A stretch of DNA of 64,000 nt from Umbilicaria muhlenbergii (Eukaryota; Ascomycota; Lecanoromycetes; Umbilicariales; Umbilicariaceae), in contig KK106982.1 of assembly GCA_000611775.1 (NCBI GenBank), positions 992,001 to 1,056,000 on the forward strand, read 5' to 3'. This document shows, piece by piece, positions 6,851 through 57,900 of this stretch; position 1 is the first letter of the stretch; every line of letters begins with the position of its first letter. Below the pieces are notes generated by a model, which saw only the letters and a program-made list of their open reading frames with translations, was not told where the DNA came from and did no database searches. The translations under genes and the position numbers were made by a program.

Positions 6851-7685
6851 ATGGACGCTGCCGCCCAACCTCTGCTTCCCGCCGCTCTACCCCGTTCTCC
6901 TCCCTCTTATACAGACCCCGTGACCCACACGCCAGAACCAGAGTCGACAATGGGCGGTAAGACGCCATGGCTCGCGTATGCCGTCGCGAGCGGAGCGTGC
7001 GCCGCCTTCAACGGCGTGTTTGCGAAGCTGTGAGACCACGCTCCCTCCCCAGCCAGCCGCAACCGGGCGATACTAACGCCCAATCCGCCACCCAGGACAA
7101 CGACCGAGCTGACCGCCACATGGGCGAGCACCATCTCCACCGCCCTCGGTCTCTCCCGCACAAACAAAGCGGTCGAGTTCGCCATCCGCGCCGTCCGTTC
7201 TCCCTTGATTCCCCTCCTCCACCACCACCGATCCCTTCTTTTTGCCCAACCCAAAAACCCGCATCGGCTAACCCCCCGCCTCCGCCCGGGTATGACAGAT
7301 CTTCTTCTCCCTCAACCTCGCGTTCAACGCCATCATGTGGACGCTGTTCACCAAAGCCCTCACGCGCGCCACGTCCACGACGCGCGTCGCCATCATCAAT
7401 ACGTCGTCGAATTTCATGCTGACGGCGCTGCTCGGGTTGCTGATTTTCCGCGAGTCGCTGCCGCCGTTGTGGTGGGCGGGGGCGGCGTTGCTGGTGGTGG
7501 GAAATGTGGTGATTGGGCGGAGAGAGGAGGAGGAGGGTGGGAAGGGGGCGGCCGAGGAGGCCTTGTTGGTGGTGGAGGGGGAGGAGTTTAGGGATATGGA
7601 TGGGGATTTGGGGAGGGAGGAGGTGGTGCTGAAGTTGGGGGATGATGAGGGGCTGAAGTTGGGAGAGGACGAGGGGGTCAAGTAG
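6851..7685 (+). CDS. EamA/DMT-superfamily (TMEM42-like) membrane transporter
   Basis: A small integral membrane protein of the drug/metabolite transporter superfamily; the substrate is unknown. The exons are 6851-7029, 7096-7192 and 7299-7685, giving 220 aa. Both introns are GT-AG with clear branch sites (ACTAACG, GGCTAACC). The first helix is WLAYAVASGACAAFNGVFAK. The next conserved part is TWASTISTALGLSR, followed by FFSLNLAFNAIMWTLFTKAL, the DMT-type stretch TTRVAIINTSSNFMLTAL, and a last helix WWAGAALLVVGNVVIG. After that comes a soluble tail rich in Glu, Gly and Asp. An internal ATG at 6950 (MGGKTPWL) is an alternative start. The coding strand is C-rich up to about 7400 and strongly G-rich after that. 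Confidence 0.88.
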
Positions 7686-7980
7686 GGGTGAGGTCTTGTT
7701 CTATGACAGGACACATAATACCGGGGTCACGGCGTCTATGGGTCGGTTCACGTGTTCTCGAGCAGTAGATCTTGGTCGAGCAATAGATTTTGATGGATCA
7801 GGAAACGCTATGCTGATGCTATGCTTTCGTCATAAATGTCGTAGAACGTTGCTCTATGCTCGAGCCACATGTAGGCCAGCCCTCTCTCTATCCTCCGAGT
7901 ATCGAGAATTCCCACACTATGCTATCTACCGAGTACACATACAATGCCGAACGACCACACCACGGTCTGCTCATCTACAC

Positions 7981-11907: not shown

Positions 11908-12826
11908 ATGGCCACCTATCCCACCGGCAAACCCTTCCTCGACAACTACGCCGCCGTAGTCTCCACATTCGGCGACTTTCTCACCGTTGCCATCCACACC
12001 ATCCTCTACGAGCGCAACATCTATCCGCAAACGTCCTTCCTCAGCGCCCGCAAATACAATTACCCCGTACGGCAGAACCGACATCCCAAGGTCTGCAAAT
12101 GGATCCAAGATGCTGTCTCCGCCGTCGAGGTTGAAATGTTAAAGGTATCCATTCCCTACCTCTATCCCTTCCTAACAAACACCTCACCTCCCAACCAACC
12201 CCACCTCCAGCCCCCACCCACTAACAAAACCCAAGGGCACTGTCGCCCGCACCTCCCTAATAATCTACTCCCCCGCCCTCATCCCCCTCGAGCGCTTCAT
12301 CTTCTCCACCACCGCCTTCCCCCTCATCCCCCCCTCCGAAGCCCTCACCCCCTTCGACACGCCCCCTCCACCACAACCACCATCTCAACACCCACCACCC
12401 CCCGAGCCAACATCCCAGCCCCCACCCGCAACCGTCCCCCTCATCGACCTCGAAGAACAATTCCGCGCCACCTTCTCCCGCCTCTCCACCCTCTCCACCA
12501 CCCTCTCCCCCCTCCCCCCGGACTGCTCCTTCACGCTCGCCGTCGAGTTGCGCGAGCAGGCACTACCGCCCATCGGGCATCCGCAGCCGTGGATACCCGC
12601 TCAGCCGAGTTTGCAGGCAGGGACGGGCGACATGGGCGATCGAGTGGCGCGGATGGAGAATGAGCGGGGGAGGTTGGGGAGAGGGAGTGATCTAGGCGGG
12701 GTGAGAACGACGCCGGTGCGGACGGTGGAGGCGGGGGAGTTTGTGCTGGAGATGTGGATCGAGGAGGGGAAGGGGAAGGAAGAGTTGAGGGGGGCGGGGA
12801 GTCAGAGCACGGAGGATCCGCCGTAG
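11908..12826 (+). CDS. REV7: HORMA-domain protein Rev7/MAD2L2 (Pol zeta accessory subunit)
   Basis: The structural subunit of translesion DNA polymerase zeta, bridging Rev1 and Rev3. The exons are 11908-12144 and 12236-12826, giving 275 aa against about 211 in human MAD2L2. The HORMA core is clear: FLDNYAAVVSTFGDFLTVAI, HTILYERNIYPQTSFLSARK, HPKVCKWIQDAVSAVEVEML, then after the intron GTVARTSLIIYSPALIPLER with FIFSTTAFP. A proline-rich loop of roughly 25 residues is inserted before DLEEQFRATFSRLS. The seatbelt-like C-terminal strand is EAGEFVLEMWIEEG. The 91-nt intron has a CTAAC branch site. The coding strand turns from extremely C-rich (12240-12540) to G-rich (12590-12830), which accounts for the proline-rich loop and the Gly/Arg/Glu-rich part. 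Confidence 0.93.
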
Positions 12827-17058: not shown

Positions 17059-18258
17059 ATGGCTAGCCCCAATGTTGATCTTCCTTCCCACACCTCCCCC
17101 ACCCTTGACCTTGTCAATCCGACCGAAGAAGAGAAGCTTCTGTGCTGGAAGCTCAATGGGGCAGCCTGGCGTGGCGCCCTATCTCTACCTAAATATCTTC
17201 GCCGCGAAGAGTATTTAGCAGACCAAGCCTTTACCCGCGACGGGGGCATTACATACTGGATCCTAGTAGATACCGCCGCATCGACCCCCGCCTCTTCACC
17301 GCGCACCATTCTAGCCAGCTGTGAATCATTGAGGAAGAAAGCACTGCTTGCTACCAGGAACGGCAGCGTTGAGGAGGTCGTAAGCCACGGTATCGGCAGC
17401 GTCTTTTGCAGGCCTGAATTCAGGGGACGAGGGTATGCGGGGAGGATGATGAAGGAGCTCGGGGAGAAATTGGAGCGTTGGCAACAGAAAGAGGGCAGTC
17501 GGGTCAGTTTCACAGTATTGTACTCAGACATAGGGAAGAAGTTCTACGCAAGAAACGGGTGGAAGCCATTTCCATCAAGTCATATCGCACTCTCGCCTCT
17601 CAAACCGCCGAAGGACACCCCTTCGACCGAGACCACACCATCATCCTCACCCCTTCACGCCGAGGACCTCCCCGCCCTCTGCTCCCTCGACCAGACCCTC
17701 CTACGCCAAAAGATAGCGCTGCACAACCCCTCAACCCGAGTAGCGCTCATCCCCGACGTCGAAACCGTGCAATGGCACCACGCGCGTGAAGAGTTCGCCG
17801 CAAAAGAACTCTTCAACCGCTTCCCCGAGGTCAAAGGGGCCATCTCCGACGGGCCCGAGGGCGAACGTGCCTGGTGCATTTGGACACGCACCTTTGGAAG
17901 TAGGCCCGAAAGCACTAAACTGCATATTCTTCGTCTGGTGATCGAGGCCGAGCAGGACATCGGTCGGCAGATGCTCAATGGGGCCAGGATCAATGGGACG
18001 GATGCAAAGAGTACAGGGGCTGTGAGAGCCGTTGCGGCGGTGCTGCTGGCAGCGCAACGTGAAGCCGACACGTGGGGTATGGACCATGTGGAGTTGTGGA
18101 ATCCGAGTCCGGTGACTGTGTTGGCGGCTAGAGATGTTTTACCGGGGGCGGAGATTGTAGACAGGGATGAGGAGAGTATTGCTTGTTTGCGGTGGTCAGG
18201 AGAAGGCAACGCGGAGGAGGTGGATTGGGTTGGTAATGAGAAGTATGGTTGGTGCTAG
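17059..18258 (+). CDS. LYC1: GNAT acetyltransferase, LYC1-like
   Basis: An intronless 399-aa GNAT-fold protein resembling the fungal lysine N6-acetyltransferase Lyc1, which acetylates free lysine in its catabolism. That activity is inferred from family resemblance. The N-terminal GNAT core spans about residues 15-175: CWKLNGAAWRGALSLPKYL, a long insertion, then the acetyl-CoA motif VFCRPEFRGRGYAGRMMKEL (about residues 118-137; the RGRGYAG loop binds the pyrophosphate) and FTVLYSDIGKKFYARNGWKP, typical of beta5-alpha4. The C-terminal half is a second GNAT-like fold characteristic of Lyc1 homologues. The ATG is preceded by a pyrimidine-rich leader and an upstream stop. The coding strand shifts from C-rich to G-rich in its 3' third. 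Confidence 0.85.
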   Translation: MASPNVDLPSHTSPTLDLVNPTEEEKLLCWKLNGAAWRGALSLPKYLRREEYLADQAFTRDGGITYWILVDTAASTPASSPRTILASCESLRKKALLATRNGSVEEVVSHGIGSVFCRPEFRGRGYAGRMMKELGEKLERWQQKEGSRVSFTVLYSDIGKKFYARNGWKPFPSSHIALSPLKPPKDTPSTETTPSSSPLHAEDLPALCSLDQTLLRQKIALHNPSTRVALIPDVETVQWHHAREEFAAKELFNRFPEVKGAISDGPEGERAWCIWTRTFGSRPESTKLHILRLVIEAEQDIGRQMLNGARINGTDAKSTGAVRAVAAVLLAAQREADTWGMDHVELWNPSPVTVLAARDVLPGAEIVDRDEESIACLRWSGEGNAEEVDWVGNEKYGWC

Positions 18259-23756: not shown

Positions 23757-25469
23757 ATGGCAGACTTTGACATTTCGCTGGTCGTGCCTACATTATTGGC
23801 CAAGTCTCTCAAGAATCACCTCGAGAAGCATGGGAAATTGGACAAGTCGACGAAGATCAGACCTGTCAATACTGAGGAGGATCTACAAGGCATTGAATTA
23901 GGTCATGAAGACGATAGAGGGAACTGTATCGGCAAGGTCATCATCCCTACGACTATAAGATGGGCTCCGGACGACAGCGACACCCTCTTCAAGTCCGCCA
24001 AAAAGTCCGCCCTGATGCAAATAGACCTTTTGCATGCTTCAGAAGCAGCCAGTATCACTCTCGCACTCCGCCCAGCATCTCCCGCAACCGCAACCTCCGC
24101 CGCCGAGTCCAAAAGCCCCCTAGCTCAGGTTACTATGGATTGGCTCTCTGTCCTGTCCGTGTCCACCAGCCTCGACTCTCCAGCCCAGCTCTCTTCCCTT
24201 CTCTCAGCCTCAAGTTGGGGCTATACAACCTATCCACCAATGCTGCTCCTCCCCAACTCGCAACCATGGCCGACCCTCCTCGCCATCGCGCAACCCGCAC
24301 AACTGGAAACCCTCTACGCACAGCTCTGCTCAACCTTCAAAGTCACGCATATTGCTCTCAATGGCCCGATACCACTCCACTCTCCGTCGAAGCCGATGGA
24401 AATGCTACCACTTTCTTCAACCACCCTGCCTTCCCCGTCTCAAGACCGCTCTAAAGCAGACCCCAAAAACCCCAACCCGTCCGAGGAAAGTACCAGCACC
24501 ACCTCAGCCCCCGTTAACGACACACCCCAAGAACCATCAATCCCCCACCCGCACCCCCAATCCGCCCCCCGCACCCCCACGACAACGAACATCGTCCGCT
24601 CCCCCACCCTCCTAACCCCCATCCACGGTTCCTTCGGCCCCCTGCTCCCCCCAACCCACGCCCCCACCCGCCTCGACCTAGCCTCGGCCTTCTGGTGCAG
24701 CGCGCAACAAAACAACATCCACCAAATCTGGGCGCCGCGATACACGATGTTTTCCCGCGGGAACATCACAGAGAAAGCGCGGATATTAAAAATGCCCGTC
24801 GTGCCCAAGACGGCTGCTGTAACAAGGGACGATCGGAGGACTGCCCACGCAGACGCAGAAGCAGAACCGGAATGGAGTGCAGTGGATCTGTATGCGGGGA
24901 TCGGGTATTTTGCATTCAGCTACGTGCAGCGGGGTGCGGCGGTCGTGTTGTGTTGGGAGATCAATCCGTGGAGCGTGGAGGGGTTGAGGAGGGGGGTTAG
25001 GGCGAATGGGTGGGGGGATGCTACGGTTGTTGAGAGTGGTGCGGACGACGGAGCTGGGATGAGGAAACTGGTAGTCTACGCCGAGGACAACCGATTCGCA
25101 GCGGAGAGGATAGAGAAACTGCGACACCTGATACCGCTGGTCCGGCACGTGAACTGCGGATTCCTCCCCACTTCTTACCCGAGCTGGCCGACTGCGGTCA
25201 GAGTGCTCGACCCTGTCGACGGCGGATGGATTCATGTGCACGAGAACATTGCCGTCACGGATATTGCGAAACGAGCACAAGAGGTTGTGGCTTTGATCGA
25301 ATCCTATGTGGCGACCACGCCACGACCTACGCCCGAGCAATGGACGGTCGAGTGCCCGCACATCGAACGTGTCAAATCATACGCTCCTGGCATCATGCAC
25401 TGTGTCCTGGACATCTCTATCGCGCCTCCCTGTTCGCCTCCATCTATGCCGCCAGTATTCGCGTCATGA
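23757..25469 (+). CDS. TRM12: tRNA wybutosine-synthesizing protein 2 (TYW2/Trm12)
   Basis: Trm12 transfers the aminocarboxypropyl group of S-adenosylmethionine to the yW precursor at position 37 of tRNA-Phe. This is an intronless 570-aa gene. The N-terminal part (VVPTLLAKSLKNHLEKHGKL, then KVIIPTTIRW) is typical of the fungal family. The C-terminal SAM-binding domain shows ARYTMFSRGN-like WAPRYTMFSRGNITEK, motif I DLYAGIGYFAFSY (about residue 376), the acidic CWEINPWSVEGLR, and HVHENIAV (about residue 493). The middle (residues about 200-300) is a Pro/Ser/Thr-rich linker unlike the rest. The coding strand is C-rich at 24050-24720 and turns G-rich at about 24880. The ATG lies in a good context right after a GC-rich leader. 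Confidence 0.94.
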   Translation: MADFDISLVVPTLLAKSLKNHLEKHGKLDKSTKIRPVNTEEDLQGIELGHEDDRGNCIGKVIIPTTIRWAPDDSDTLFKSAKKSALMQIDLLHASEAASITLALRPASPATATSAAESKSPLAQVTMDWLSVLSVSTSLDSPAQLSSLLSASSWGYTTYPPMLLLPNSQPWPTLLAIAQPAQLETLYAQLCSTFKVTHIALNGPIPLHSPSKPMEMLPLSSTTLPSPSQDRSKADPKNPNPSEESTSTTSAPVNDTPQEPSIPHPHPQSAPRTPTTTNIVRSPTLLTPIHGSFGPLLPPTHAPTRLDLASAFWCSAQQNNIHQIWAPRYTMFSRGNITEKARILKMPVVPKTAAVTRDDRRTAHADAEAEPEWSAVDLYAGIGYFAFSYVQRGAAVVLCWEINPWSVEGLRRGVRANGWGDATVVESGADDGAGMRKLVVYAEDNRFAAERIEKLRHLIPLVRHVNCGFLPTSYPSWPTAVRVLDPVDGGWIHVHENIAVTDIAKRAQEVVALIESYVATTPRPTPEQWTVECPHIERVKSYAPGIMHCVLDISIAPPCSPPSMPPVFAS

Positions 25470-25609
25470 CCACGACGCTGACGTACAGCACGAAATATGT
25501 AAGGGGGTAGTAGACCTCGAAGTTCTGGCCGGCGAGATCCCAGAAGCGGAACCAGCAGAGGACGCTGAGGACGAAGAAGAAGGTGCGTGAGTGGCTGGGA
25601 AATGGGGGG

Positions 25610-26375
25610 TTAGGGGTTCCGGCGAAACTTCTGGGGGATGTTTTGCTCGACGATGGGCATGCGGTCGAGTTGTTCTTGCCGCTCTTCGGCGTCGGCTTCG
25701 AGGTCGTGTTTGCGGAAGTGCGCGATGTCTTCCGGGTGGGTGAGGTCTTCTTCGCGGGTATCTGGAGAGATGTGGCGATCAGCAATGCGGTCTTTTGCAG
25801 ATGAAAACGGGAATAGATCTAATCCTTACTCTCGTCGTGATACTTTTCGAAATGATGGATCTCGTACTCGTACTCGTCGTCCCCGTGATGGCCCGGCCCC
25901 AGCTATCCAATCACCTTATTAGCACTCTCTCCGCACCCGTGTATTCCCCTTCCCGTTCCCTGGATGTAGCAGCACATACCCCAAAATCCGGCAGCACCTC
26001 CGTACTCCGCACAAACTCCTCCCTCTCAATCAACCCATTGTGATCCGCATCAAACAACCTATACACCTCCCTCGTCACCTCCTCCCTCTTCTCATCACTC
26101 ACATCCTTGGTCGATTCGTCATCAAGCCCGTACATGCGGCGTACTTCGTCAGGCGTCCATGCACCGCTGGAATCGAAGTCGTGGAGACTGAAGAAGGCGC
26201 CGGGGTCGAAGGACGCGATGTGGTGCTCCTCGATCATATGCCGGGTTGCCCAGTCGACATCGTCGCCGAGCGGTTGTTGTTGTTCGTCGGAGTGGGAGCC
26301 GTGTGCGGAGATGGGGTGGACGAGGGCGAGGAGGGCGAGGAAGAAGGTACAGGTGAGGTGGGAAAGAGTCGGCAT
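25610..26375 (-). CDS. SSP120: Secretory-pathway EF-hand protein, Ssp120/nucleobindin-like
   Basis: A calcium-binding protein of the secretory pathway similar to yeast Ssp120, which associates with the cargo receptor Emp47. The exons are 26375-25980, 25902-25830 and 25761-25610, giving 206 aa. It opens with a signal peptide (FFLALLALVHPISAHGSHSD), then WATRHMIEEHHIASFDPGAF, EF-hand loop DFDSSGAWTPDE, and EF-hand loop DADHNGLIEREE. Exon 2 adds LGPGHHGDDEYEYEIHHFEK. The tail is HPEDIAHFRKHDLEADAEER and ends IPQKFRRNP. The introns are 77 and 68 nt, GT-AG. It converges on TRM12 with only 140 bp between stop codons. Confidence 0.9.
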
Positions 26376-27094: not shown

Positions 27095-29141
27095 TCAAAT
27101 ATCCGTCGAAGCAGGATCCGTATCCATAAACACCTTATACAACCTCTTACTCAACGCCGGCCCAATCCTTGACTCCGTAAAGGCCCCATTCTTGTTCGCG
27201 GATTTCTGCACAGTTCCAAAGGAATCAGTCACCACTCTGCCTCAATCCGATCAAAGTCACAAGTGATTAAACATAACATGCACAACTCACCTTCAAGTCC
27301 TCCAAAGCACTCGGCCCCTCCTGCCTGAACCCCTTGACCAAAGCCACTACATTCGGATACTTGGCCGCAATACCATACGCCACTGGCGCCGTGACGCGGA
27401 CGACCTCCTGTAGCATCTTCACAAAAGTGTCGTCCTTGTCTTCACCGGTCTTCACTTGACCGACGTCCATACAGAAGGAGGTGGAAAGATTCATGCGTTG
27501 ATTTCTAGAAGTAGTATTCATGGGTTAGTTTTGCCATATGTTTGTCGGTATGTAAGGGGAACGAGCGAGGGAATGGGACGGGACAAAGAGGAGAGGAAAG
27601 AAATACCGGTACGGTATCGTGGAGATATGCTGCGTGAAATTAGCCACCCATTCTGCTGTCTCCACAGTGGCGGCCGTGTGGTGGATCAGGCAGCCGTGCA
27701 TGACTTGTAATCGCAGCAAGGCATCTTCGATCATATCCTCATCAATATATTCCGCGCCGGGCCTCCTACGTTTCGAGGTCATCTGCGAGGTGTCTGTGGC
27801 CCCATCCATTTGGCTCAGAACTGCAGCTTGGTACGCTCTATTCCGTGTGTTCTTGTTCTTGCGCATCCAGGCGGTCAGACCCTCAATGAGGTAGATGGGG
27901 GTACAGTCTTCAAAGTTGCTCTTTACTTTCAAGACGTGCGTTTCGAGGTCTAGGCCGTCTGCTTCGGTAGGATCGGCGGAGGTTAGATCCACGAATTCTT
28001 TTGCAGAAAGAAGACACATCACGTGCTTCTCCTTCTGGATGGTCTCTGGAGTGGGCTCCCAGTGGCCGAGCTCGTCGTTGAAGATGGCGGCGACTTTGCG
28101 GCGCCATTTGATGATGTTAGGTAAAGGACTGTAGTAGGAAGATGCTCGGACTTGAAGGTTCTTTAAAAATTCTCGACTTTGGGTATCGACACTCTTGCCC
28201 TCAATGGAGAATGGTAAATCGACGATCATCTCAGGGGTAGAAATCTTCTTGTCGGTCTTTGCCTTGTTAACTTCAGCGAGGTCTGCTGCCAGTTGCTTTT
28301 CCCGGGCCTTTTCTTCCTTCAATAGGCGCTTCCTTTCTTGTTCCTCCTCCCTCTCTTTCAGCTTCTGCACCTTTCCAGCCTCTTTAATTAGCTCCTTTTC
28401 TTGTGCTCGGGCCTCCTTCTCTGCTTCGGTAAGTCGTACCTTTTTAGAGGGTTTATCAGGATCGCAAAGGTCGATATGAGCAGGAAATGGCCCTGGTCTG
28501 CTGGGTTGAGACTTCCCATTAGGCGATACGCTGGTGGTATCTCTGGGACCTAGCTTGTCGCTCGACTTTTTGCGACCGCCGGGAGAGCCCAGTTTGCGCG
28601 CGCGAGGTCGTGCGTTCCCCGAGAGAGTCGCAAGCAAAGCTGTTGTACGTTCTGAAAGCTGGGAAGTCGATTTAGGCGGCTGAGATATTGCAGTTGGGTT
28701 GTCTGGCAGGAGTATGTCTTCGTCAGATCCATCGTAAATAGACGATAGGGATTTGAATGTATCCTTTGTAGTCCGAGAGACGACAGCAACGTCGTTTGCT
28801 GATGACGTAAAGACGATGGGATCGGAGTCATCATATCTCCTCCTATGTCTCTTTGTGGCCGCGGATGGCTTCGACGATCCACCATGCCCAGCAGTATGAA
28901 TCACTCTTGAGGCTATTGGGAGGACGTCGCTGACAGGACTTGGACTAAGCTTTCGCCGCTTGTATGGTTTGTCCGCCCAAATATCGTCGACATGGATGCC
29001 ACTATCGATATCATCGGACAAGACCGCAAACCCCTGGTCCAACCGTGCATCTACATTTCCAAGGCTCTTGTTGTGATGTGGCTTTGGCAGCGCTTCGTCA
29101 TCCGTACTGAGGCTTAGATCGATTACTTCGTGTGGAGGCAT
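27095..29141 (-). CDS. EME1: Crossover junction endonuclease subunit Eme1/Mms4
   Basis: Eme1 is the non-catalytic partner of Mus81, which cleaves branched DNA at stalled forks and in recombination. The exons are 29141-27607, 27504-27291 and 27205-27095, giving 619 aa. The N-terminus MPPHEVIDLSLSTDDEALP is typical of fungal Eme1 and resembles a SUMO-interacting motif (VIDLS). A long disordered, Lys/Glu-rich region follows, with a coiled stretch about residues 255-320. The ERCC4-like fold begins near STPEMIVDLPFSIEG and includes TPIYLIEGLTAWMRKNKN and ALLRLQVMHGCLIHHTAATV. The C-terminal helix-hairpin-helix part includes NVVALVKGFRQEGPSALEDL and SRIGPALSKRLYKVF. The upstream codons to 29204 look like leader sequence. 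Confidence 0.93.
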
Positions 29142-29573: not shown

Positions 29574-31098
29574 TCATTGTATAAGTCTTTTGTACAAAAT
29601 CCCAATAATAGCTATAGCCACCACTCCCAAAACTCCCAATCCCAGCAAAACATCCGGAACCTCCGTAACTTCCACCCTAGGCGCCCTGACCACCGCCTCA
29701 ATCTCCTCATCCAGCCTGTTCGCCATCTTAGTCTCCGAGAACTCCTCCTTGACTCTCCTCCGTCCAACCTCTCCCATATGCCTCAGATGTTCCTCCGTAA
29801 AGTGGAACAGAACCCTCCGCATTAGTTCCGTCCACTGCTCCACGTCGTCAACTGGTCGAAGCCAGCCGGTCTCGCCATCCACGATGGTCTCCAGAGGACC
29901 GCCGCTGTTCGCCGCCAATACCGGCACGCCCGCTAACATAGCTTCGAGAGGCACGATGCCGAAATGCTCGTTTGAAGGCGTGTACACCAGGAGCCTCGCG
30001 GCGTTCAGGAGCATTGACTTTAGTTGCGCGGGAATCGAGAGTAGGAAGAGCACCTCGATGTCGTTTGGGATGTTTAGGGCGGTGACGATATTCTTTGCTG
30101 TAGCTGTTTTCAAGCTTAAAGATTCCGCCAGGGACACCAGCTCGTTGTGGTACGAGACATTTTCTTGTACCCGATTGTCGTAACCACCTGCCCAAGGATC
30201 AGTAAAAAGCCTAAAGACCGCTTCCTTACCGGGAATGACAGACCTGCAATGACCAGCCTCACGCCCTCCCTGCCTCTTTCTCCCAAGCCCGCGTATGCTT
30301 TAATCGCCAACCCCACATCCTTCTTCCTCTCGAACCGATTAATACTCAAAACGACCTTCTTCCCCCTCCACAACTCCTTACCCTTCTCCTCCGCCCCACT
30401 GCCCTCAATCCCTCCACCTCCTTTATCCCCAACCCCAGTATCGACACAAGGATAAACAACCCTTACCCCCCTCCCCCCCCNNNNNNNNNNNNNNNNNNNN
30501 NNNNNNNNNNNNNNNNNNNNNNNNNNNNNNNNNNNNNNNNNNNNNNNNNNNNNNNNNNNNNNNNNNNNNNNNNNNNNNNNNNNCCTCCCCCCCGCGAGCA
30601 AAAAATCCGGATAATGGCAATAAAACAGCACCCTTGTCCGCGGCCACCTCCACCTCAAAACGGGCACCCCGGCGACCAACTGATCCACGAAGAAAACCCC
30701 CGGTCGCAGCCGCGCCAGCTCCCCCGTCAGCGACACGGAAAGCAGGAGGTGGTAATGCCGCAGTATCGCCATGAGGATGTGAAAGCGGGAGAAGAGCGAG
30801 GGCGGGAAGAGCCAGTTGCCGCGCACGCGGACGTCGAGGGTGCCTGTGTGCGGTTTCATGCGCGGTCAGCGCATTAGGTCAAATAGGTAGGGGGTCTTCA
30901 AGCAGAAAGGAAAGCGGAACAGATAAACGCACCATCTCTCGCCTCGTCGAAGCAGTGACTCGGGTCGCAATGGGAGGTGAAGATCGTGACTTTATGCCCC
31001 AGATTCTGCAAGCCCACGGCGGCGTCGATGACGAGACGTTCGGCGCCGCCGATGCCGAGGTCGGGGTGGAAGAAGACGATGTTTTTGCGGGTGGGCAT
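29574..31098 (-). CDS. ALG2: Alpha-1,3/1,6-mannosyltransferase Alg2 (interrupted by an assembly gap)
   Basis: Alg2 adds the second and third mannoses to the dolichol-linked N-glycan precursor on the cytosolic face of the ER. The exons are 31098-30933, 30843-30244 and 30187-29574. It opens with the GT4 motif [20 protein letters not shown]. Exon 2 has [16 protein letters not shown] and [12 protein letters not shown], then the 103-N gap, then [10 protein letters not shown] and [17 protein letters not shown]. Exon 3 has the donor-sugar motif [20 protein letters not shown] and ends in a hydrophobic anchor [15 protein letters not shown]. Across the gap both sides stay in the same frame with about 35 unknown residues, which fits the family spacing. 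An upstream in-frame ATG is possible; [10 protein letters not shown] matches family starts. Confidence 0.92.
30481..30583. other. Assembly gap of 103 N inside ALG2 exon 2
   Basis: 103 undetermined bases, flanked on the plus strand by long C-runs (G-runs on the coding strand) on both sides. Confidence 0.99.
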
Positions 31099-31480: not shown

Positions 31481-34400
31481 TTACCAGAAATGATCCTCAT
31501 CGATAGGCCTGGGCGTTTGCACTTTTAGATCTCCATCCCCCTCATCCCCATCCCCATCCTCGAGCACGACTTCCCCTTTCCTTTCCCCAAGTTCACCATC
31601 ACCCCTCACAGCGCCACCATTCCTTTTCTCTCCCCTTCCAGCCTCTCTCATCCTGGTAGTCTCCTTTTCCGCCTCAATAGCTAGTTCCCTTCTCTCCTCC
31701 ACTTCCAGTCTGGTAACCACTTTCTTAAGCCCATCGCTCGCCTGGATCAGCCCGTCAATACTGATAGCATGATTGGTCATCTCATGATTGATGTACGCAT
31801 AGACCTCGGCAGGGGTATCACATTCCATCAAGCTCCCCTCGTTCAACTTCAGCAGCGCCAGAGCGACCTGGAAGAGAAACGTACTGCCGTCGTTGAAACA
31901 CAGCACGACGTCCCAGACACGGAATAATGCTTCGGCGGACAGACAATCGGTGAACAGAGAAAGGAACCATTGGAAAGTAAGAGCTTCGAGCTCGATGCCC
32001 AAGTCATCCAGATGTGCAGAGAGGCGCGGGAGAATCTCAGCGACGTACTGGCGGAGGACCTGCTGATCGGCGCGCGAGGCGATGAGAGATTGATCGTAGT
32101 AATGCCGTGGGAGAGTATTTTCGATCATACTAGCCAGGATCCAGAACGCATCTTCGGTAGTAGGCATGATGAGCAGCAGAGAAGCGGTAATAAGATTCAT
32201 GCCTTGACAATATCCGACCTCAGGGTTGCGACGGGAGTAGGCCAGCAGGACTTCATTCAATTTAGCCACACCAGGACCCTTGCGGAAAAAGACATTGTCT
32301 GTGAGAGTCCGATTGATATCCATTTGGATCTGAGCCAGGATCTCCGGATCATCAACACCGTTGGTCACAAGGTCATCATAATAGCCTGGCACTCGCATGG
32401 CAGACGCACCGCTGCATTCGGCCCAAACCTTTGCGCGGTAGGCCACGGGAATACCAGCGAGGACGAGCTGTTTAAACTCCTTCCATTTAGCACGTCCGAC
32501 CTTTCCCTTGTTGCCCAAGCCGGCCACACCAATCAATTCCCCATCTGCAATAGTCGCTTCGGGCATGAAAGCCTGCTTTGAGCGGTTATCATTCCCGACG
32601 ATAGCATCTCCTTCCTTTTTGCGTTCAGCGCGGACTTTCCGCAAGAATTCATTCCATTTGACTGTCTTCTCACGCTGCAAAGAGTCATGGACCTCGGTGA
32701 GTTTCGCTAGAAGCATCTGCACTGGCTCTGCCTCCGCATTAACTGTGGTCTGTGGGCTAGTCGTCACGGCAAGAGAAGGTTTCGCGATTTCAGCATTCTC
32801 TGCAGTGACGGTTGAAGCTAACGGCTGGGGGTTAACACTGGTCGATGGGTGCGATGCTCCGTTATCTCCAAAAGTAGGTGCTCTCCTCAGCGGGCTTTTC
32901 ACGTCTGTAGAACCTAGAGTAATGATGGCTCCTGACGATGGGGTATGCGACAACAGCTCCGTTGGGAATGTTGCGGCTTTGAGGTAATCCTGCCATCTCT
33001 TGGTGGGCTTCCCATTGGCTTTGTCTTCTGTCGATGCTGCGGTGTCTGGCCTTGCATCTGTGTCTGCTGAAGTAACAGCCTGCCCGCCGGTTTCCCTACC
33101 GCTTTCGACCACGTCTACGGGATCTCGAGCACTGCTGAGCATCTCCATGCCACTATGATGCTTTTTGGCATTGCCATTGCTAAGCGCATCTACCTCTTTC
33201 TTTTTCCGGCGTTGGTCATAGATAAAACCAAACCGATCGGTGAGAAATTCGGCAGGCCGATTGTTATTATCGGATTGCGTTAACGTCGGAGGTCTTGAGT
33301 CAGGAGGGAGAATGGTGTCCATCTCTACCGGGCCCAGATTGCTGGCTGTATCTGTAGACAGCGGGCTTCCAGGAACTAGGCCGCCTGATTGATGAGTAGA
33401 TCCCTTGAGTGTGCCGGACGGGCCAAGAGCCAAAGGCTGTGCAGACTTTCTTGTCGGCTGGATGTTCGAAGACCTGCTATTCACCTTCATTAACGCTGCG
33501 GTCGCAGAGCTTGTTGTCGCCGTTGATGCAATTGAAGGATTCCGTGAGCTTTGAAACGCCCCGTGACCTGTTGTCGCAGATCTTCCTCTAACCGTTTGCT
33601 GGGTCTCAGATTCTCGTCCTGCCTGGGGGTTACCCGCAAAAAGCTTCAATGTCCAGGAGGCGATAGAAACGGACGATTTCCTTGAATGGCCATCAGTATC
33701 ACTACCACTCTTGATGTTGATGCTGGAATCCGGAGTTCGTTGCAGGGCCGAGTCGTGTGGTGGCGGCTGGAAAAGATCCTCATTGAGTGTCTTTCGTCCA
33801 GTTGACACTCCACTTGGAGCTCGTGCTCTCGTAGCCATACTTCTGTCATGGTGATAGTCGCTTGCTGCGCTGCTCGCTCGACTACCATTGCGGCTTTTGA
33901 CAGTACCATTCCATAAGTAGTCCTTCCAGCCTTTTACGATGTCCTTAGCCCGGCCTTGTGAATCTAGGCTTGAGCTTATCGATCTTCGATCGACAGCTTT
34001 TGCGGGGACAGCAGTAGCTCTGATCGTAGCCTGCCAGTTTTGCTCTTCGACCGTGTCCAAATAGCCTTCATCAAGTTCATCAATAACCCCAACATCCTCC
34101 CTCATGGCATCTCCCATCATCGCATCAATCCCATTCGTAGCGCCTACAAATTTACTCCCACTTTCACTCCGGCCCTGCTCCGTAACCATGGCTCGCTGAC
34201 CGGCAGCAGTCACACTATCCTTGAGCGGATTGTCGATATGGTGCAGCCGTTTCTCGATGTCTAGATTCGACACCTCAACCTCACGAAGCATCTTCTTCAG
34301 CTCCCTTTCCCTCTCCTCGGCCCGCCTCCTAAAACCGGTAATCTCCGCATCGCGTAGCGCTAGGTCCTCTGCGAGCTGTCTGACGAGAGCGATGGCACCG

Positions 34401-34825
34401 GTCTTTGCCACCAAGCGTTTGATGAGCTCATCGCTCGCAAGATGCAGTGCACCAGGCACGTCCTGCTTGTTTCTGGGCGAGTCTTCGAAGAGTGCTGAGC
34501 GACCACGGAAGGATGTGGTCCTGGTGATCAGATCCTCTACGATGGAGGATTTGCGAGGCGCTGGAGGTTGCTTTTGGGACTCGTGGCTTGCGAGGATTGT
34601 GCGATCACGAGTAGCCTCGGGCGAATTGTCGGGCGAAAGAGAGGGAAAAGAAGTAAGGGATTTCGTTGAATCTCCGGCAGTAGGCGTTGGCACCGGTGTG
34701 ACAGAAGCGCTGGAGAGATGCTTTCGTGGCTTCATGCGAACAGTACCCGACTTTCGACTTCGATTTGACGTGGTTGATGCCTGGGATGATGTCCGCTGCA
34801 AACTCTCGCCACCGTTGCCCTCCAT
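31481..34825 (-). CDS. TBC-domain Rab GTPase-activating protein
   Basis: An intronless 1114-aa protein. TBC proteins switch off Rab GTPases in membrane traffic. The first about 700 residues are disordered and Ser/Thr-rich, with one short coiled segment (RRRAEERERELKKMLREVEV, about residue 165). The TBC domain covers about residues 760-1030. It has the arginine-finger segment QMDINRTLTDN, the glutamine-finger segment EVGYCQGMNLITASLLLIMP, and family hallmarks such as FQWFLSLFTDCLSAEALFRVWDVVL. A charged C-terminal tail follows. Both catalytic fingers are present, so it should be active. The domain order resembles yeast Gyp2 and its fungal relatives; the target Rab cannot be told. The start is the first ATG (MEGNGGESLQ). 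Confidence 0.9.
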   Translation of the reverse strand: MEGNGGESLQRTSSQASTTSNRSRKSGTVRMKPRKHLSSASVTPVPTPTAGDSTKSLTSFPSLSPDNSPEATRDRTILASHESQKQPPAPRKSSIVEDLITRTTSFRGRSALFEDSPRNKQDVPGALHLASDELIKRLVAKTGAIALVRQLAEDLALRDAEITGFRRRAEERERELKKMLREVEVSNLDIEKRLHHIDNPLKDSVTAAGQRAMVTEQGRSESGSKFVGATNGIDAMMGDAMREDVGVIDELDEGYLDTVEEQNWQATIRATAVPAKAVDRRSISSSLDSQGRAKDIVKGWKDYLWNGTVKSRNGSRASSAASDYHHDRSMATRARAPSGVSTGRKTLNEDLFQPPPHDSALQRTPDSSINIKSGSDTDGHSRKSSVSIASWTLKLFAGNPQAGRESETQQTVRGRSATTGHGAFQSSRNPSIASTATTSSATAALMKVNSRSSNIQPTRKSAQPLALGPSGTLKGSTHQSGGLVPGSPLSTDTASNLGPVEMDTILPPDSRPPTLTQSDNNNRPAEFLTDRFGFIYDQRRKKKEVDALSNGNAKKHHSGMEMLSSARDPVDVVESGRETGGQAVTSADTDARPDTAASTEDKANGKPTKRWQDYLKAATFPTELLSHTPSSGAIITLGSTDVKSPLRRAPTFGDNGASHPSTSVNPQPLASTVTAENAEIAKPSLAVTTSPQTTVNAEAEPVQMLLAKLTEVHDSLQREKTVKWNEFLRKVRAERKKEGDAIVGNDNRSKQAFMPEATIADGELIGVAGLGNKGKVGRAKWKEFKQLVLAGIPVAYRAKVWAECSGASAMRVPGYYDDLVTNGVDDPEILAQIQMDINRTLTDNVFFRKGPGVAKLNEVLLAYSRRNPEVGYCQGMNLITASLLLIMPTTEDAFWILASMIENTLPRHYYDQSLIASRADQQVLRQYVAEILPRLSAHLDDLGIELEALTFQWFLSLFTDCLSAEALFRVWDVVLCFNDGSTFLFQVALALLKLNEGSLMECDTPAEVYAYINHEMTNHAISIDGLIQASDGLKKVVTRLEVEERRELAIEAEKETTRMREAGRGEKRNGGAVRGDGELGERKGEVVLEDGDGDEGDGDLKVQTPRPIDEDHFW

Positions 34826-40918: not shown

Positions 40919-41205
40919 GTGCATGCTGGGTGGAGCAGTGGGCTTGCAGGACGCGCAGTGCTTCGGGCCATCGGCTTACTCCGGAGAGGCTTCCCCCTGA
41001 AAACCTTACTGGGACCTAGTCACGTGCGAGTACATTTCGACCTCCCTTCGCTTATCGATAAGCGGTTTCAGAAAAAGCGAAATCGAAATCGAATCCGACC
41101 CTTTCGAGGCATCACGCGTGTGCACCCCGCCACGGGCGCATACTCCACACTCCCCCCGCGACAACCATCACAACGGTCAAGTGACAGCAGTCTGCTGCTG
41201 CCACA

Positions 41206-43100: not shown

Positions 43101-43725
43101 ATGCGAGCCTCACCTTTATCCATCATTCTGGTCCTGACTGAAATCGCGCTTTTCACCTTAGCCATCCCCATCAACCCCATCACCACTCTTGCCTTGGCTC
43201 CCCGCAGCCAGTCCTGCGCCAACGCGCCCTCGACTATCGCCGGCACGTAAGTTGCAAGACCCCCCATCTTCACCTGCCCCATCCCGCTCCACCCAGTCCT
43301 GACATCCTCCTCCCCCCTCTCCCTCCAGCCCACTCCACCCCCGCCACGGCACCGATACCATCCTCTGGTGCGCGCCCAACTCCCGCACCTACGTAATCAT
43401 CACCATGATCCGCGCCGTCGCCGACCCAGCCATCACCAGCCTCCTCAGCGACGCGCAGCGCCACGCGCGCGTGCGGATCGTCGCCTACGGCGACAACGCC
43501 CTCAATGGCGGGCGGTTCAGCTGGATGGGCGACGGGTTGAATGAGATCAAGGTGTGGAATTCGAATAATCATCAGATTACTTATGGGGTTTTGGGGGCGG
43601 CGTTGGGGGCGCTCAGGGATTATATGGTGAGTGAGGGCGGGGTGGTGGGCGAGGCGGGGTTTGTGATTGTGGATGGGGCGAATGAGGTGGGGAGGGGGAC
43701 GGTGGGGGTGGGGTTGGTGGGGTAG
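43101..43725 (+). CDS. Small secreted protein of unknown function
   Basis: The exons are 43101-43246 and 43329-43725, joined through an 82-nt GT-AG intron (GTAAGT donor), giving 180 aa. It starts with a signal peptide (SIILVLTEIALFTLAIPI, cleavage probably within the next 15 residues). The mature part has only two cysteines (SQSCANAPS and LWCAPNSRTY), which could form one disulfide. It continues VIITMIRAVADPAITSLLSD and RVRIVAYGDNALNGGRFSW, then IKVWNSNNHQITYGVLGAAL, and ends Gly/Val-rich. I do not recognise the family. A secreted enzyme fragment, a surface protein or an effector are all open. The coding strand flips from C-rich to strongly G-rich near 43500. Confidence 0.78.
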
Positions 43726-44293: not shown

Positions 44294-45433
44294 TCAAGCC
44301 ATCTTCCCCGGCACCATCGGATGTCCCGCACTCAACCCGCCATCCACCGCCCACGCCTGCCCATTAACATAACTGGCGTCCTCACTCCCCAAAAACAGCG
44401 CCACCCTCGCAATCTCATCCGCCAACCCCCCGCGCCTCAGCGGATTCAGCTGCCCGATCCGGCCCTCGGTGCCTCGCTTCCGCGCCGCTTCGTACGTGGA
44501 CTGCGTCATGCCGGTTTCGGTCAGGCCGGGGCAGATGGCGTTGCAGCGGATCGAGGTGCCCGAGAGCTGGTAGCAGGTTGTCTGCATGAGGGAGATGACG
44601 GCCGCTTTTGAGGCGGAGTAGTCGGTGCCGCCCGCGTTGGAGCGCAGGCCGGCGACGGAGGCGGTCGCGATGATGGAGCCCCCCGGGGAGGGTTTGAGGG
44701 GGGAGGTGAGGAGCATAGCGCGGGCGGCGTGTTTGGTCGCGAGGAAGACGCTGGATGAGTGGAGGTGGGGTTAGTTGGGTTGTTGGAGGGAGGGGAGAGG
44801 GAAGGAAGGAAGGAAAGGGGAAGCACCTCAAGACGTTTGTCCGCATGACTTTCATGAACTCGTCGACTTCTATCTCCGTGAAGACTTTGTGGGCGCCTAC
44901 GATCCCCGCGTTGGCGAACATGATGTCTAGGCGGCCGTATTTGGCGATCGCTTCGTCGACGACGGCTTTGACGGCGGGTTCGTCGGCGGCGTCGAATTGG
45001 CGCGGGTGGACGTCGACGGAAGGGTAGAGGGAGGAGAGTTCGGCTTGGTAGGTGGATAGGTGCGTGGATGTGAAGTCGCACAGGTAGATTGCGCGGGCCC
45101 CGTTGTGGGCATATTGGTAGGCGGTGGCGCGGCCGATACCGATGGGAGAGTTGGCGCCTGAGTGGGGGGTGGGTTGTTAGAGGTGGTGGGTGGGGAGGAG
45201 GTGTGGATGGGTGATTTACCGGTGATGATGATGACCTTGTCTTTGACTCGTCTGGACTACCGGTCAGCGCTTTGTAGGTGCAAGAAGAGTGGAGTGGGAT
45301 ACGGAGCTTACTGCCCGGTCGAGTCTCCTGCCACTTGGCGGATTTTGGGGATCCTGTCGGAGCTACTGGAGCCTGTCTGGCCTACCAGATGGCTCGTGAC
45401 TTGCTGCAGCCGATTCTTTGCATTTGATGCCAT
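44294..45433 (-). CDS. Short-chain dehydrogenase/reductase (SDR)
   Basis: A classical SDR, an NAD(P)-dependent oxidoreductase; the substrate is unknown. The exons are 45433-45312, 45251-45220, 45157-44827 and 44750-44294, giving 313 aa. The Rossmann fold opens with [20 protein letters not shown] (nucleotide-binding TGxxxxxG), then [13 protein letters not shown] (NAG), the catalytic serine in ATASVAGL and the catalytic pair in YSASKAA. The proline-glycine turn [10 protein letters not shown] follows, and the C-terminus reads [16 protein letters not shown]. Exon 1 gives a 40-residue leader ahead of the fold, longer than in most SDRs of this kind; part of it (residues about 17-36) is Ser-rich. 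The 5' half of the coding strand is C-rich and the 3' end G-rich. Confidence 0.9.
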
Positions 45434-53709: not shown

Positions 53710-54971
53710 GCGAGCATGTCTTGCCTTGGCCAGAGCAGGACTCCTTTCCGCACGTCTCAACGACACTCACTTCCCTTACGCATTTTATGATTCTTTGTTC
53801 ATTGTTTTGCATTTTATGGTACGGGACTATGTGACATTGTAGGCGGACCGATTCGCCATTTCCCGAGTTTCTTTCTCCTGCATATGGTCCGCCGATATTT
53901 TGTTTTCTGCATTGCACTCTGGACGGAAGATACTACCGGCGCACTTCTGGGCATTCTGGCTGGGGGTGGATCACTGTGCTGGAGGATTGCAATCCGATTT
54001 TTTCCCATCTGCGGGCATTCACCTTTACCTTGTACATGATTCACGCCATTTTTGGAGTTTTGCTTTGCGCTGCTCTCTTTATCGAAGATACCACCGCCGC
54101 GTTGCTAATGGCTTTGCCTTTCTTACGTATACATGGGTTCGGCGGACATGGCTGGTGTTTGGCGCTCTTACGACGGCTGGCGAGCTTTCGCGGGCGAAGG
54201 TAGCTAGGCTTCGGGATGGGTTGCAGTGACAGGAATAAGAGCTACTCGAAAGATTGGCTTAAGGTGCTTTGATGCCGTAATTCAAGGTTGAGGATCGTGT
54301 TGATGAGGCGCGTGATATTGCCTTGTAGAGCCCCGAACCCTAGAGCCTGAAACAGCAATCCTTCGAGAGAAAAAACCCTAAAGCCGTAGATCCTCTACAA
54401 ACTGCACAGCGAAAGCTGTGTCCCGGAATCGTCAGAATGCAAAACGTGACCTTGAATGAATCATCGTAATACTTACACTCGAGGGGCTTTCCCAAAGGTC
54501 TTTTATGTGTGGAGTAATGAGAGCGGCCACTGGATTTAGCCCCAAACCTGACAAGACACACGGTGTCGGGGTTTCTTAGAATTCTTAGAACTCTTAGAAC
54601 GCTACCAGCCTCTAGCACCTCTGTAACTCTTAGAACTCTTAGACTTCTTAGAACCCTTAGAACCCTTAGAATTCACGGAGTTCTTTGAATTCATCGAACA
54701 GTTCCTCCTCTAGCAGCCCCTGGTATTTCCCAAAACGCATAAGCCGAGAAGCATTTACCCACCTCATCCGCGTTACTGAACCGTACGCATCACAGCAAAA
54801 CGTACGAAGCACTAGCGCCACTGATTCGTACGGTCATAGACTTCATTTCTCTAGCCGGAGAGCGCCCTTCACATCATCTCGTCCAAAGCCATCTACCTTA
54901 TACACAACCCAACGCCACCAACCCCAACGACTTTTCACACGCCTCCCCCCCGTGCGCCATCACCAAAACAC
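53710..54971. other. Convergent 3' intergenic region kinesin / Nud1-like gene
   Basis: 1.26 kb. A hydrophobic short frame at 53976-54203 is probably untranslated sequence. Two blocks of a 9-bp tandem repeat lie at 54573-54671. No RNA gene was seen. Confidence 0.5.
54573..54671. repeat. Two blocks of a 9-bp tandem repeat (NNCTTAGAA family)
   Basis: Block one (54573-54599) has TTCTTAGAA twice and CTCTTAGAA once. Block two (54627-54671) has CTCTTAGAA, CTCTTAGAC, TTCTTAGAA and CCCTTAGAA twice. The copies differ mainly in the first two bases. A 27-bp spacer separates the blocks. Confidence 0.88.
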
Positions 54972-57900
54972 CTATGTATCCGACCCCGCATCTCCACCAT
55001 CTCCACCATCTCCACCATCCATCCCCCTCTGCCTCAAAACCCCCAGCTCAACCAACCGCTCCCACACCCCATCCCTCCTCCCCACCCTCCCCCTCTCCAC
55101 CGCCATCCCATCCAGCACCTCCAACCCCGCACATCCACTAAGAATCAACATTTCGTAAACCCTCCTCCTCAACTTCGTGGCGTCGTCCAAGCGCGCCACG
55201 TACTGCTCATCGGCGTCCCTGTCCGCGGGCGGTAAGACGTATTTCGCCGCCACGTCCGCGCCGTCATTGTCGTTATCGTTGTCCTCATCCGCATACCCGC
55301 GATTCCGATCTTTAACCACCACCTGCGTCCCCACCTCGCCCTTCCCCGTCTGCGCAGAGGAAGAAGCCGGGGCATGGAACCCAACCGTCAGCGGATTGGC
55401 TCTCAGATCCAGCACCTCTAAACCAGGAAACGCCTTGGCCAGCACAGTAGTCGTGCGTCGGAGCCTCGAGATGCGGTTTCCGGCGAGGGACAAGGTTTGC
55501 AGCCGTACAATACCCATCAAGGGACGGATGTCCTTGATGGCGTTGAAGTTTAGGTTCAGGACGCGCAGGTTGGAGAGCTTGGTTCCGAAGTTGGGGGGAA
55601 GGTCATGCAGGCCCGAGGAGGCGAGTTCGAGGTGCTGGAGATTGAGGAATGAGGGGGTGGGGATGAAGCTGGGGAGGAGGTTGCCGGAGAGGTGGAGGTT
55701 GCGGGTCTCGTAGCTGTCGTTGTAGTGGAGTGAGGAGACGGCTTCAGTGTCGATCGGGCTTTGTTCACGCCAAGAGAGGGTTTCGAGATGTTTTAGAGTC
55801 CTGAGGCCGTGGATCTGGGAGAGCTGGTTCCCGTCGAGATCAATGGATGTTAGATTGGGGAAGGTCGAAACATCGATTGATGTAAGGGAGTTGTTGGATA
55901 GGTTGAGCGACTGGAGACTAAGCAGCTGGTTGGGATGGTCTCCGCCGAAAGTCCCAAGTGCATTCGAACCTGCAGAGTTAGCACTACCTTTCGTAATAGA
56001 GAGTAGCGACTTACTCAGATCCAAATACTTCAGGGCGCAAAGATAGTGTAAATTGGATACGCTTTGTAATTTGTTTCCTCGCAAATCAAGCTCGGTGAGA
56101 CGCCTCCTGAGCTAGAATTAGCATACCCATAGCGATAAGGTTGAATACTCACACTTACAGCTCAGTACCCTCAAGATCCACGGTTGTCACCGAATTCCTT
56201 CTTAAGCGCAGAGCAATGAGCCCATCAAGGCCGAGAATACCATCAAGACTCTCGATGTGATTGTCGTCTGCTATTAGCTCCCTCAAGTGCACAAGACTGC
56301 TGAATCCCTTTAGGCTTTGTATTTGATTATCGGATACATTGAGATATTGGAGGTTGTGTAAATGACCCCAAGCGGTCATGCTAGATAGACAATTACGTCG
56401 TATGTCCAGATGGCGGATGCTGGACGGGGCACCGTTAAGTTGTCCCAGCTCGTTGTTGGACACATCAAGCTCCTCGATTCGGCCACAGAACTCTTCTAGC
56501 ATGTGCAACGTGAGGAGATTTCTGTTCTTGAGGTCGAGCTTGCGGATGTAGTCCCAATAGGGTTCGTAAGGCTCGACGTCGGTGATCTTCTTCACCAAGT
56601 CTTGGATAGCCAGGGAAAACTTGCTTTCGACATCTGTCAACGACAGCAGTCCACGATGTTTGACAATGTAGCTAACGTCGCGATTAAAAGACTCGTCAGT
56701 CTGATGAACAGTGAATTCAGGCAAGGGACTAAGATGAAAGCTGACATTCGAGTGTCTGGTTGTGGAGGGAGGGGGCATTGACAGACTCCCAGGCTGGTCA
56801 CCGAGCGGCATTGGCGTAGATATTGCAACATCAAGACTCGTACCTCGGATGTTGCTCTGGGGCTGAAGGAAAGATAGCTCATCTTGCTCGTCGATGCGAG
56901 TTATCGGACGAGCGATGTACGATCGGTGACCTATTGAAATTCGGCGTGCAGCCCCTCGGTATCTAGTTGCACTTTCTTGTGAGGTTCGCCGCGTAGCGCT
57001 CTGCAAGTTTCCCTGCTCGACCTCTAAAGTACAATCGGGTAGGTCTGTCAAATTAAACTCGCTGTCGTCTTCCCAGATCTGCGGTTCTCCAGGAGTGGCC
57101 GGTTCTCGATTGTGGCTTACCAGTGGAGAAGAGAATGCTACAGTGATCACCCGAGCTTGGCGTTGGCCTTGACCATTTCGAATAGGCGTTGTAGAAACGC
57201 GACCCTCAAGAATGCTAATCTCATGCTCCACCTCCTCAGCGTGCATGTTTTCCTCCGCAAGGGGAGCTTCCCGTCGCTCTGCATGTAATGTATCCTTCGG
57301 CTTTAACGCTAGCACCTCATCGCCCCAAGAAGTCGCTCGGGTCTCAGTTTTGGGACCGCTAGATGTCAACCGGGAGTACTTGGAAGGCGCAGAGCTTGTC
57401 TGAGCGGCGTCAAAGTTCACCGTATCTCTTGGTTCTCGTTGAATACTATGATCCGCTGAGGTGTCTGTTTGCTGTCGAGGTTCGTTAAGTTTGTCGCTTG
57501 TGGCTATGCCGTTCGATATGGATCCGATGAGCTTGACCGAAGACATAGCAGTTTGGATTCGCCTCAGCTCTTCAAGCTCATCAACACTCAAGTCAGGGAT
57601 CTCGCCAAGAGGGTCTTCTTCTGTCTCTTCGCTGGCAGTATTGCTCGGGCTATTTGAGTTTGGCTTATTGGATGACTTTCGTTTAACCCACACCTGCCTG
57701 CTGCGATCGAAAGTCATTCCTGCAATTTGACCGGATATCAGGTGAGATACTTTGTCGGGCGCAATAACCGCCCTGTTGCCAGAACCGTTGGAGGAACCGG
57801 TAGGGATTGACCGTCCCGTCGAAGCACCGGAAGAAGGTTGTGAGTTGTGAGAGTAGCTCTTCGGGTCCGTCCCAAAAGCCGATGGCTCTGGCACGGAGGA

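Follow-up and report, generated by a model that had tools for sequence, protein, structure and literature searches.

A sharp switch from C-rich to G-rich coding strand near the 3' ends of many genes in Umbilicaria muhlenbergii

Results

The window analyzed here is a 64-kb stretch of the genome of the ascomycete Umbilicaria muhlenbergii (positions 992001-1056000 of contig KK106982.1), within which the coding strand of many genes changes abruptly from C-rich to G-rich. A preliminary description of the window had reported, by eye, such a switch in GC skew at eight genes, which are listed in Table 1 with two further genes. Comparison of the 400 bp on either side of each switch recovers it at all eight named places, with jumps in skew of 0.60-1.11. 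At 986 window positions lying more than 900 bp from these places, the background jump has a mean of -0.006, a standard deviation of 0.186 and a 95% range of -0.36 to 0.40, with extremes of -0.60 and 0.70. When jumps of 0.7 or more are scored with the same 400-bp arms, the window holds eight switches from C-rich to G-rich (C>G) versus two of the opposite sign (G>C).

Table 1. Window genes with a C>G switch. J is the C>G step at the 3' end of a gene; skews are those of the + strand in the 400 bp left/right of the position given in the preliminary description.
Gene	Position	Strand	Model	Switch	Distance upstream of stop	J	Skew left/right	Pfam match of the protein
DMT/EamA-like gene	6851..7685	+	3 exons (model)	~7429	257 bp	0.83	-0.37/+0.53	EamA, 25.2 bits, under the cut-off of 28.2
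REV7-like HORMA gene	11908..12826	+	2 exons	~12545	282 bp	1.06	-0.68/+0.39	HORMA, 32.2 bits
LYC1-like acetyltransferase gene	17059..18258	+		~17933	326 bp	0.74	-0.21/+0.39	GNAT_LYC1-like, E 8.3e-69
TRM12/TYW2-like gene	23757..25922	+	spliced end uncertain	~24759	not close to stop		-0.41/+0.30	TRM5-TYW2, 24.6 bits, under the cut-off of 28
Further switch gene	27095..29141	-		~27385	290 bp	0.52		
ALG2-like gene	29574..31098	-	mid-gene G-rich coding stretch	~30594 (main)	1020 bp		-0.45/+0.33	Glyco_transf_4, over the first 141 amino acids
TBC gene	31481..34825	-		~31841; another ~34370 in the 5' part	360 bp (first)	0.64		RabGAP-TBC
'Secreted protein' gene (label of the preliminary description)	43101..43725	+	2 exons	~43505	221 bp	1.00	-0.45/+0.66	none
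Short-chain dehydrogenase (SDR) gene	44294..45433	-	4 exons	~44513	219 bp		-0.41/+0.38	adh_short_C2, E 2.5e-51
Long LRR gene (Nud1-like in the preliminary description)	54972..60741	-	3 exons (model)	~55357	385 bp		-0.41/+0.41	LRR_4/LRR_8, close to the end of open reading frame 56155-60741

Nine window proteins were compared with Pfam, and eight returned a match, two of these below the curated cut-off; the exception was the 'secreted' protein. KAP114-like and LYC1-like proteins are present among the products of the window genes. The switch of the TRM12-like gene lies ~710 bp from the stop codon if the single-exon reading frame (end 25469) is taken and 1164 bp from it in the spliced model, and the ALG2-like gene carries a second, weaker switch at ~29883, 309 bp from its stop, together with a 103-base run of N (30481-30583) within its skewed stretch. 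In the 'secreted protein' gene the G-rich arm continues beyond the stop codon. The intron of the REV7-like gene is likewise C-rich, as is one intron of the SDR gene on its coding strand. Directly upstream of the DMT gene, at window positions ~6570-6640, stand short tandem repeats of the 'cagggtccaacccatct' type. A strong C>G switch (jump 0.91) also lies at 26166, ~240 bp past the stop of the TRM12 model and outside every gene model; it may mark an unmodelled gene.

Other genes of the window had been described as lacking the switch. This holds for the KAP114 gene (J 0.01) and is doubtful for the gene at 48407-53709, labelled a kinesin (J 0.33, z 3.4, where z is derived from codon shuffling), whereas the TBC gene has a clear switch (z 6.2).

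To place the window in the context of the whole genome (34,788,950 bases in seven contigs), we drew on its two 10-kb flanks, on 25 other 10-kb stretches taken at set places, and on eight loci of ~3.6 kb reached through SDR matches. Twelve of the 25 stretches have a G+C content of 28-39% and the remainder one of 45-55%; the genome would thus appear to have two compartments, as in fungi with repeat-induced mutation. The gene analysis covers the 22 records with more than 45% G+C (242,554 bases), so that gene counts refer to sequence outside the AT-rich part. Genes were modelled with a simple spliced gene finder, the KAP114 and DMT models being set by hand, and the predicted introns are short (median 62 bases). 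Genes scoring below 20 were excluded before counting, as were locus L008 (which overlaps L014), the model L003:42-776 (which crosses a run of N) and L033:571-1425. The last of these is a tandem repeat with a unit of ~54 bp that imitates a long open frame and contains an N run. Sixty genes were kept, a small set picked by coding score; a wrong strand assignment would leave the sign of a C>G switch unaffected but would spoil its distance to the stop.

The switch is a 3'-end feature. At a jump of at least 0.55 between 300-bp arms, 49 switches were called in ~239 kb (including those at N runs or in the tandem repeat), and 30 of them fall in the 60 kept genes, at a median of 338 bp upstream of the stop codon (interquartile range 284-447); the interquartile range of their distance from the ATG is 452-1728. 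In genes of at least 2.2 kb, seven of the eight switches are no more than 450 bp away from the stop. Codon shuffling gives a 3'-end C>G step with z above 3 in 24 of the 60 predicted genes and z below -3 in one, and J is 0.5 or more at the ends of 22 of the 60 genes versus none of 54 interior windows. When profiles are aligned at the stop codon, all three length classes of gene are C-biased from about -700 to -500, pass near zero at about -400, are G-biased from -300 to about +100 (farther in long genes), and then turn C-biased again. The C-rich arm is not simply the body of the gene, as the interval from -800 to -400 is more C-biased than the gene's own body in 23 of 30 genes of at least 1.5 kb (p 0.003) and in 14 of 19 genes of at least 2.2 kb (p 0.02); the G-rich arm lies above the body in 20 of the 30 (p 0.002).

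This placement qualifies the original picture of a C-rich 5' half and a G-rich 3' half, which fits only short genes; in longer ones the switch is displaced toward the 3' end, and its mid-gene appearance arises mainly because the short genes are ~1 kb long. Skew rises from the first to the second half in 40 of 60 genes (mean +0.18, Wilcoxon p 2e-4), and the rise shrinks with gene length (rho -0.50). Over its whole length, the halves of the Nud1-like LRR gene differ by just -0.02, and the skew of the gene at 70360-72250 drops by 0.27 between halves, although its switch is among the strongest (jump 1.31).

The occurrence of switches in genes on both strands had been taken to argue against replication. 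That argument fails: a C-then-G arrangement reads C-then-G from either strand (as displayed for four switches), and, being its own reverse complement in this sense, it cannot separate a transcription-linked from a replication-linked switch through genes on both strands. Position relative to genes can do so. Of 46 C>G switches, 36 lie inside gene models, as do nine of 37 G>C switches, the other 28 falling outside (Fisher p 1e-6); for this count all models scoring at least 6 were used, which cover 53% of the sequence, and the count omits three C>G and two G>C switches that coincide with N runs or the tandem repeat. The proposal that the polarity belongs to genes is therefore borne out on this different ground.

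All classes of coding site take part in the switch. Averaged per gene over the 60 genes, coding skew changes sign from -0.119 in the first decile to +0.328 in the last, as the preliminary description had anticipated, and pooled fourfold-degenerate sites follow from -0.167 to +0.223. Where J is 0.5 or higher (22 genes), fourfold sites pass from -0.56 to +0.79 and codon positions 1 and 2 from -0.27 to +0.60, and the first 100 bp past the stop have a skew of +0.39. The switch is thus not limited to codon positions fixed by conserved protein sequence; it does shape the proteins, as had been suggested, with amino-acid composition changing alongside codon positions 1 and 2. Introns give a divided answer: those at -700 to -400 in strong genes are C-rich (-0.74 and -0.76), whereas the pooled introns of the 60 genes lack a clear switch. 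Upstream of the 60 genes, 300 bp have a skew of -0.114, and in the three length classes the skew of the 100 bp before the ATG is -0.06 to -0.24 and that of the 100 bp following the stop is +0.10 to +0.20.

Twofold-degenerate sites in 24 strong genes resolve the change further. Between -250 and -50 of the switch, C/(C+T) is 0.83 and G/(A+G) is 0.36; between 50 and 250 the values are 0.32 and 0.80, and the baseline is 0.53 for both. Read as transitions, these data have the coding strand gaining A>G and C>T in the G-rich arm and the other strand gaining them in the C-rich arm, changes classically tied to single-stranded DNA, as in mitochondrial genomes. Fourfold sites also show transversions to G or C, and G+C rises; more than single-strand transitions is therefore needed.

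Alignment at the switch itself, in 24 genes with J of at least 0.4, reveals a mirror image, with a skew of -0.46 at -200 to -100 and +0.52 at 200 to 300, and a G+C content of 0.58-0.61 within 300 bp on both sides and of 0.48-0.56 beyond. The unit spans ~1 kb, with ~450 bp of C-rich arm followed by ~450-500 bp of G-rich arm that runs into the 3' flank. AT skew is roughly flat (-0.11 to +0.10) and near zero around the switches of 24 strong genes. The strengths of the two arms covary (rho -0.48, p 9e-5 in 60 genes; rho -0.40, p 0.03 in the 30 longer ones), a covariation absent from the 54 interior windows (rho -0.06). By the Bayesian information criterion, the distribution of J is best described by two components (65.8, whereas a single component gives 72.5 and three give 70.5; n=60), with means of 0.09 and 0.77. 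In a separate survey of the 60 genes, G-quadruplex-type motifs (four GGG runs) were found to cluster on the coding strand in the last 200 bp before the stop, which hold 18 of the 25 sense motifs between -800 and +200; ten antisense motifs lie mostly farther upstream.

The switch recurs beyond the window. Scored in the same way (400-bp arms, threshold 0.7), the 25 stretches contain 15 jumps of C>G sign and 13 of G>C sign, three of each touching N gaps, and three shuffles of these stretches in 50-bp blocks gave no jump of that size. Outside the window the raw jumps thus differ little in sign, and the imbalance emerges once gene position is considered; in the random stretches alone, 23 of 32 genes are positive (Wilcoxon p 5e-4). 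Across the genome, CCNCCCC followed by GGGGNGG has 103, 541 and 1805 matches at gaps of 20-50, 150-180 and 400-430 bases, and the reverse order 50, 174 and 428, giving ratios of 2.1, 3.1 and 4.2 (a sister form of the reverse order has 178 matches). These counts include overlapping matches (for example, 26 in seven places of the stretches analyzed), so that the ratios are relied on and binomial p values would be too small. Among genes outside the window, one (L021:146-1734), which we take to be actin-like from its first residues and its length of 375 amino acids, has C-rich fourfold sites in both halves (-0.42 and -0.43) and no switch, as if strong codon selection overrode it.

Discussion

The switch is real and unusually strong, and it is a form of the opposite GC skews already known at the ends of fungal genes; its strength and shape may be new relative to these. 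We consider its most probable cause, with moderate confidence, to be a transcription-linked, strand-asymmetric substitution pressure, whose mechanism is inferred. In the G-rich arm, the coding strand would be the more exposed strand, consistent with the preference there for G over A and T over C at twofold sites and with the extra G, and the exposure could arise where polymerase is slow or R-looped toward the 3' end. In the C-rich arm, the same bias would act on the other strand, by way of antisense transcription or strand-specific repair. An additional force that raises G+C, either mutation or gene conversion, would be needed because G+C is raised on either side of the switch, out to ~300 bp.

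Several observations weigh against this explanation. A simple ramp from C at the 5' end to G at the 3' end would not lead one to expect a C-rich arm just before the 3' end, and the excess of transversions to G is unexplained by deamination alone. Pooled over the 60 genes, introns show a C bias in every decile except the last, where they reach +0.01, and G-arm introns are few, amounting to one bin of 83 bases (+0.46). The ALG2 and TRM12 genes are exceptions to 3' anchoring, their switches being distant from the stop; ten of the 46 C>G switches fall outside all gene models; and 20 of the 60 genes have no rise between halves. Moreover, 29 of the 60 genes show little switch (J below 0.25) and are flat at fourfold sites too, so that constraint is not hiding the effect there. 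The division between strong and weak genes is not explained by the number of introns (p 0.16), their density (p 0.60) or an intron near the end (p 0.12), by the orientation of neighbors (14 tandem, 28 convergent and 18 edge genes; p 0.68), or by the gap to the next gene (p 0.07), length (p 0.09) or codon bias (28 genes, p 0.11). As the strong and weak classes are themselves defined by skew, profiles within a class are partly selected.

It is unlikely, though well short of implausible, that the switch instead reflects selection on DNA or RNA, rather than on protein, for avoidance of C or richness in G at the 3' ends of transcripts, acting through polymerase flow, termination or RNA stability. 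Such selection was also proposed by McLean and Tirosh (2011; PMC3315797), and it would accommodate the involvement of all codon positions, the extension of the skew into the 3' flank, and a class of switch genes that may be discrete, given the two-component fit. Avoidance of C, however, predicts the G-rich arm and not a covarying C-rich arm directly upstream, and the largest shifts are seen at the least constrained sites, namely fourfold positions and C-arm introns.

Substantially less probable is a symmetric point process independent of transcription, such as replication initiation or repair of meiotic breaks at the switch, that exposes opposite strands on its two sides. The mirror symmetry of the unit and the G+C raised on both sides would fit, and a bidirectional origin would likewise give a C>G sign if its leading strand is G-biased (a bias stated in PMC3315797). 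The location of C>G switches inside and G>C switches outside gene models, together with the anchoring to stop codons, is not what this process would produce. The observed skew, moreover, is lost within ~500 bp, and long-range trends are weak, the cumulative skew in 500-bp bins reaching its lowest value of -2.62 at 43.5 kb and ending at -1.61. The switches also recur about once per 5 kb, which is too dense for replication origins. On gene position, stop anchoring and extent, we reject origins of replication and recombination hotspots as the principal cause.

Selection on the mRNA for pairing of its halves, one of the causes put forward in the preliminary description, is very improbable. The two arms do have complementary compositions, within-arm shuffles fold less well than three of the most skewed units (z -2.7 to -3.3), and five of 24 local alignments of one arm to the reverse complement of the other beat their shuffles (z above 2.4). 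Across the 24 units, however, the mean folding z is -0.5 against within-arm dinucleotide shuffles, so that arm composition accounts for nearly all of the folding, and the mean alignment z is 0.9, with scores of 8-22.5 over 300 bp. An inverted duplication or sequence palindrome is rejected on the same weak arm alignments.

Selection at the protein level, for Pro/Ser/Thr-rich first parts and Gly/Glu/Val-rich or low-complexity tails, is scarcely tenable: codon positions 1 and 2 do shift and some tails are of low complexity, but synonymous sites contradict it, as third positions of fourfold and twofold codons, C-arm introns and the 3' flanks of strong genes shift likewise, and the switches of the LYC1-like and SDR proteins sit within conserved domains (amino acids 184-399 in the former). 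We give equally little credence to an artefact of sequencing or assembly in the form of palindromic chimeras, since neither arm is a reverse-complement copy of the other, open frames that encode conserved domains cross the switches, and C-then-G tract pairs are in four-fold excess genome-wide, even though strongly skewed tracts contain two of the four N runs in the sequence analyzed (that of the ALG2-like gene and L003:400-724). The latter run lies within an unmodelled pair of C-rich and G-rich tracts, next to a sequence that resembles a Tn5 adapter end, as if skewed places resisted sequencing.

Transcription-linked substitution pressure might take a more specific form. As a tentative proposal, which we hold possible without favoring it, each strong gene would carry one discrete, mirror-image unit of ~1 kb centered ~340 bp before the stop, made by one local process under which the antisense strand is exposed upstream of a fixed point and the sense strand downstream of it. 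An antisense transcription unit at the 3' end of the gene, either on or off and following, like the gene itself, a C-first, G-last rule, is one example of such a process. If true, the coupled pair of arms would recast the 3'-end G-bias as half of a pair, not as a ramp at the gene end.

A switch that is strong, sharply placed and nearly absent from 29 of 60 genes offers a contrast within one genome for distinguishing mutation from selection, and the same contrast can be used to seek an antisense or 3'-end R-loop cause. Gene prediction, readings of protein ends that rely on composition, and perhaps sequencing may fail at such switches.

Comparison with known systems

In human genes, GC skew accompanies R-loops at 3' ends, with a G-rich coding strand; we know of no C-rich arm in that setting. 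Replication origins and meiotic hotspots show a mirror-symmetric change in the sign of skew, unlike which the switches described here are bound to genes and stop codons and extend over ~1 kb. A literature search on skew polarity at recombination hotspots returned nothing relevant among its matches.

Among fungi, C-bias around transcription start sites has been described together with that of plants (Fujimori et al., 2005; PMC555766), and the coding strand here is likewise C-biased upstream of and just after the ATG; judged by its title and abstract, that paper concerns the 5' end. Leptosphaeria maculans, whose genome is compartmentalized, as that of U. muhlenbergii appears to be, has C-rich peaks of CG skew near the start codon (PMC3411245); the excerpted parts of that report treat promoters and T-DNA sites and give no 3' switch.

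The closest counterpart, and one that overturns the earlier statement that no standard account of such a switch exists, is the analysis of McLean and Tirosh (2011; PMC3315797), which describes opposite skews at the ends of fungal genes, C-biased at the 5' and G-biased at the 3' end, in almost all fungi examined. No other account in fungi appeared among the full-text matches listed, a set that mostly excludes subscription papers. The skews of McLean and Tirosh (2011) extend to fourfold sites, flanks and amino-acid usage in many, but not all, genes, with AT skew flat and mostly positive; mutational and adaptive explanations were offered, and the cause was left open in 2011. The genes studied here share with theirs the C-biased 5' end, the G-biased 3' end and the involvement of fourfold sites, flanks and amino acids. 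A re-implementation of their shuffle test is passed by 39 of the 60 genes (17 of the 22 that lie in the window or its flanks), compared with the 33% they report for C. albicans, 14% for S. cerevisiae and 7.5% for S. pombe; the small number of genes used here and their choice by coding score make this comparison a rough one. They fit C. albicans by a flat gene body with simple ramps at the ends, which does not describe the present genes, as the C-rich arm dips below the body. Relative to the text of that account consulted here, what sets U. muhlenbergii apart is the abrupt change of sign ~340 bp upstream of the stop codon, preceded in long genes by a C-rich arm that is itself anchored to the 3' end.

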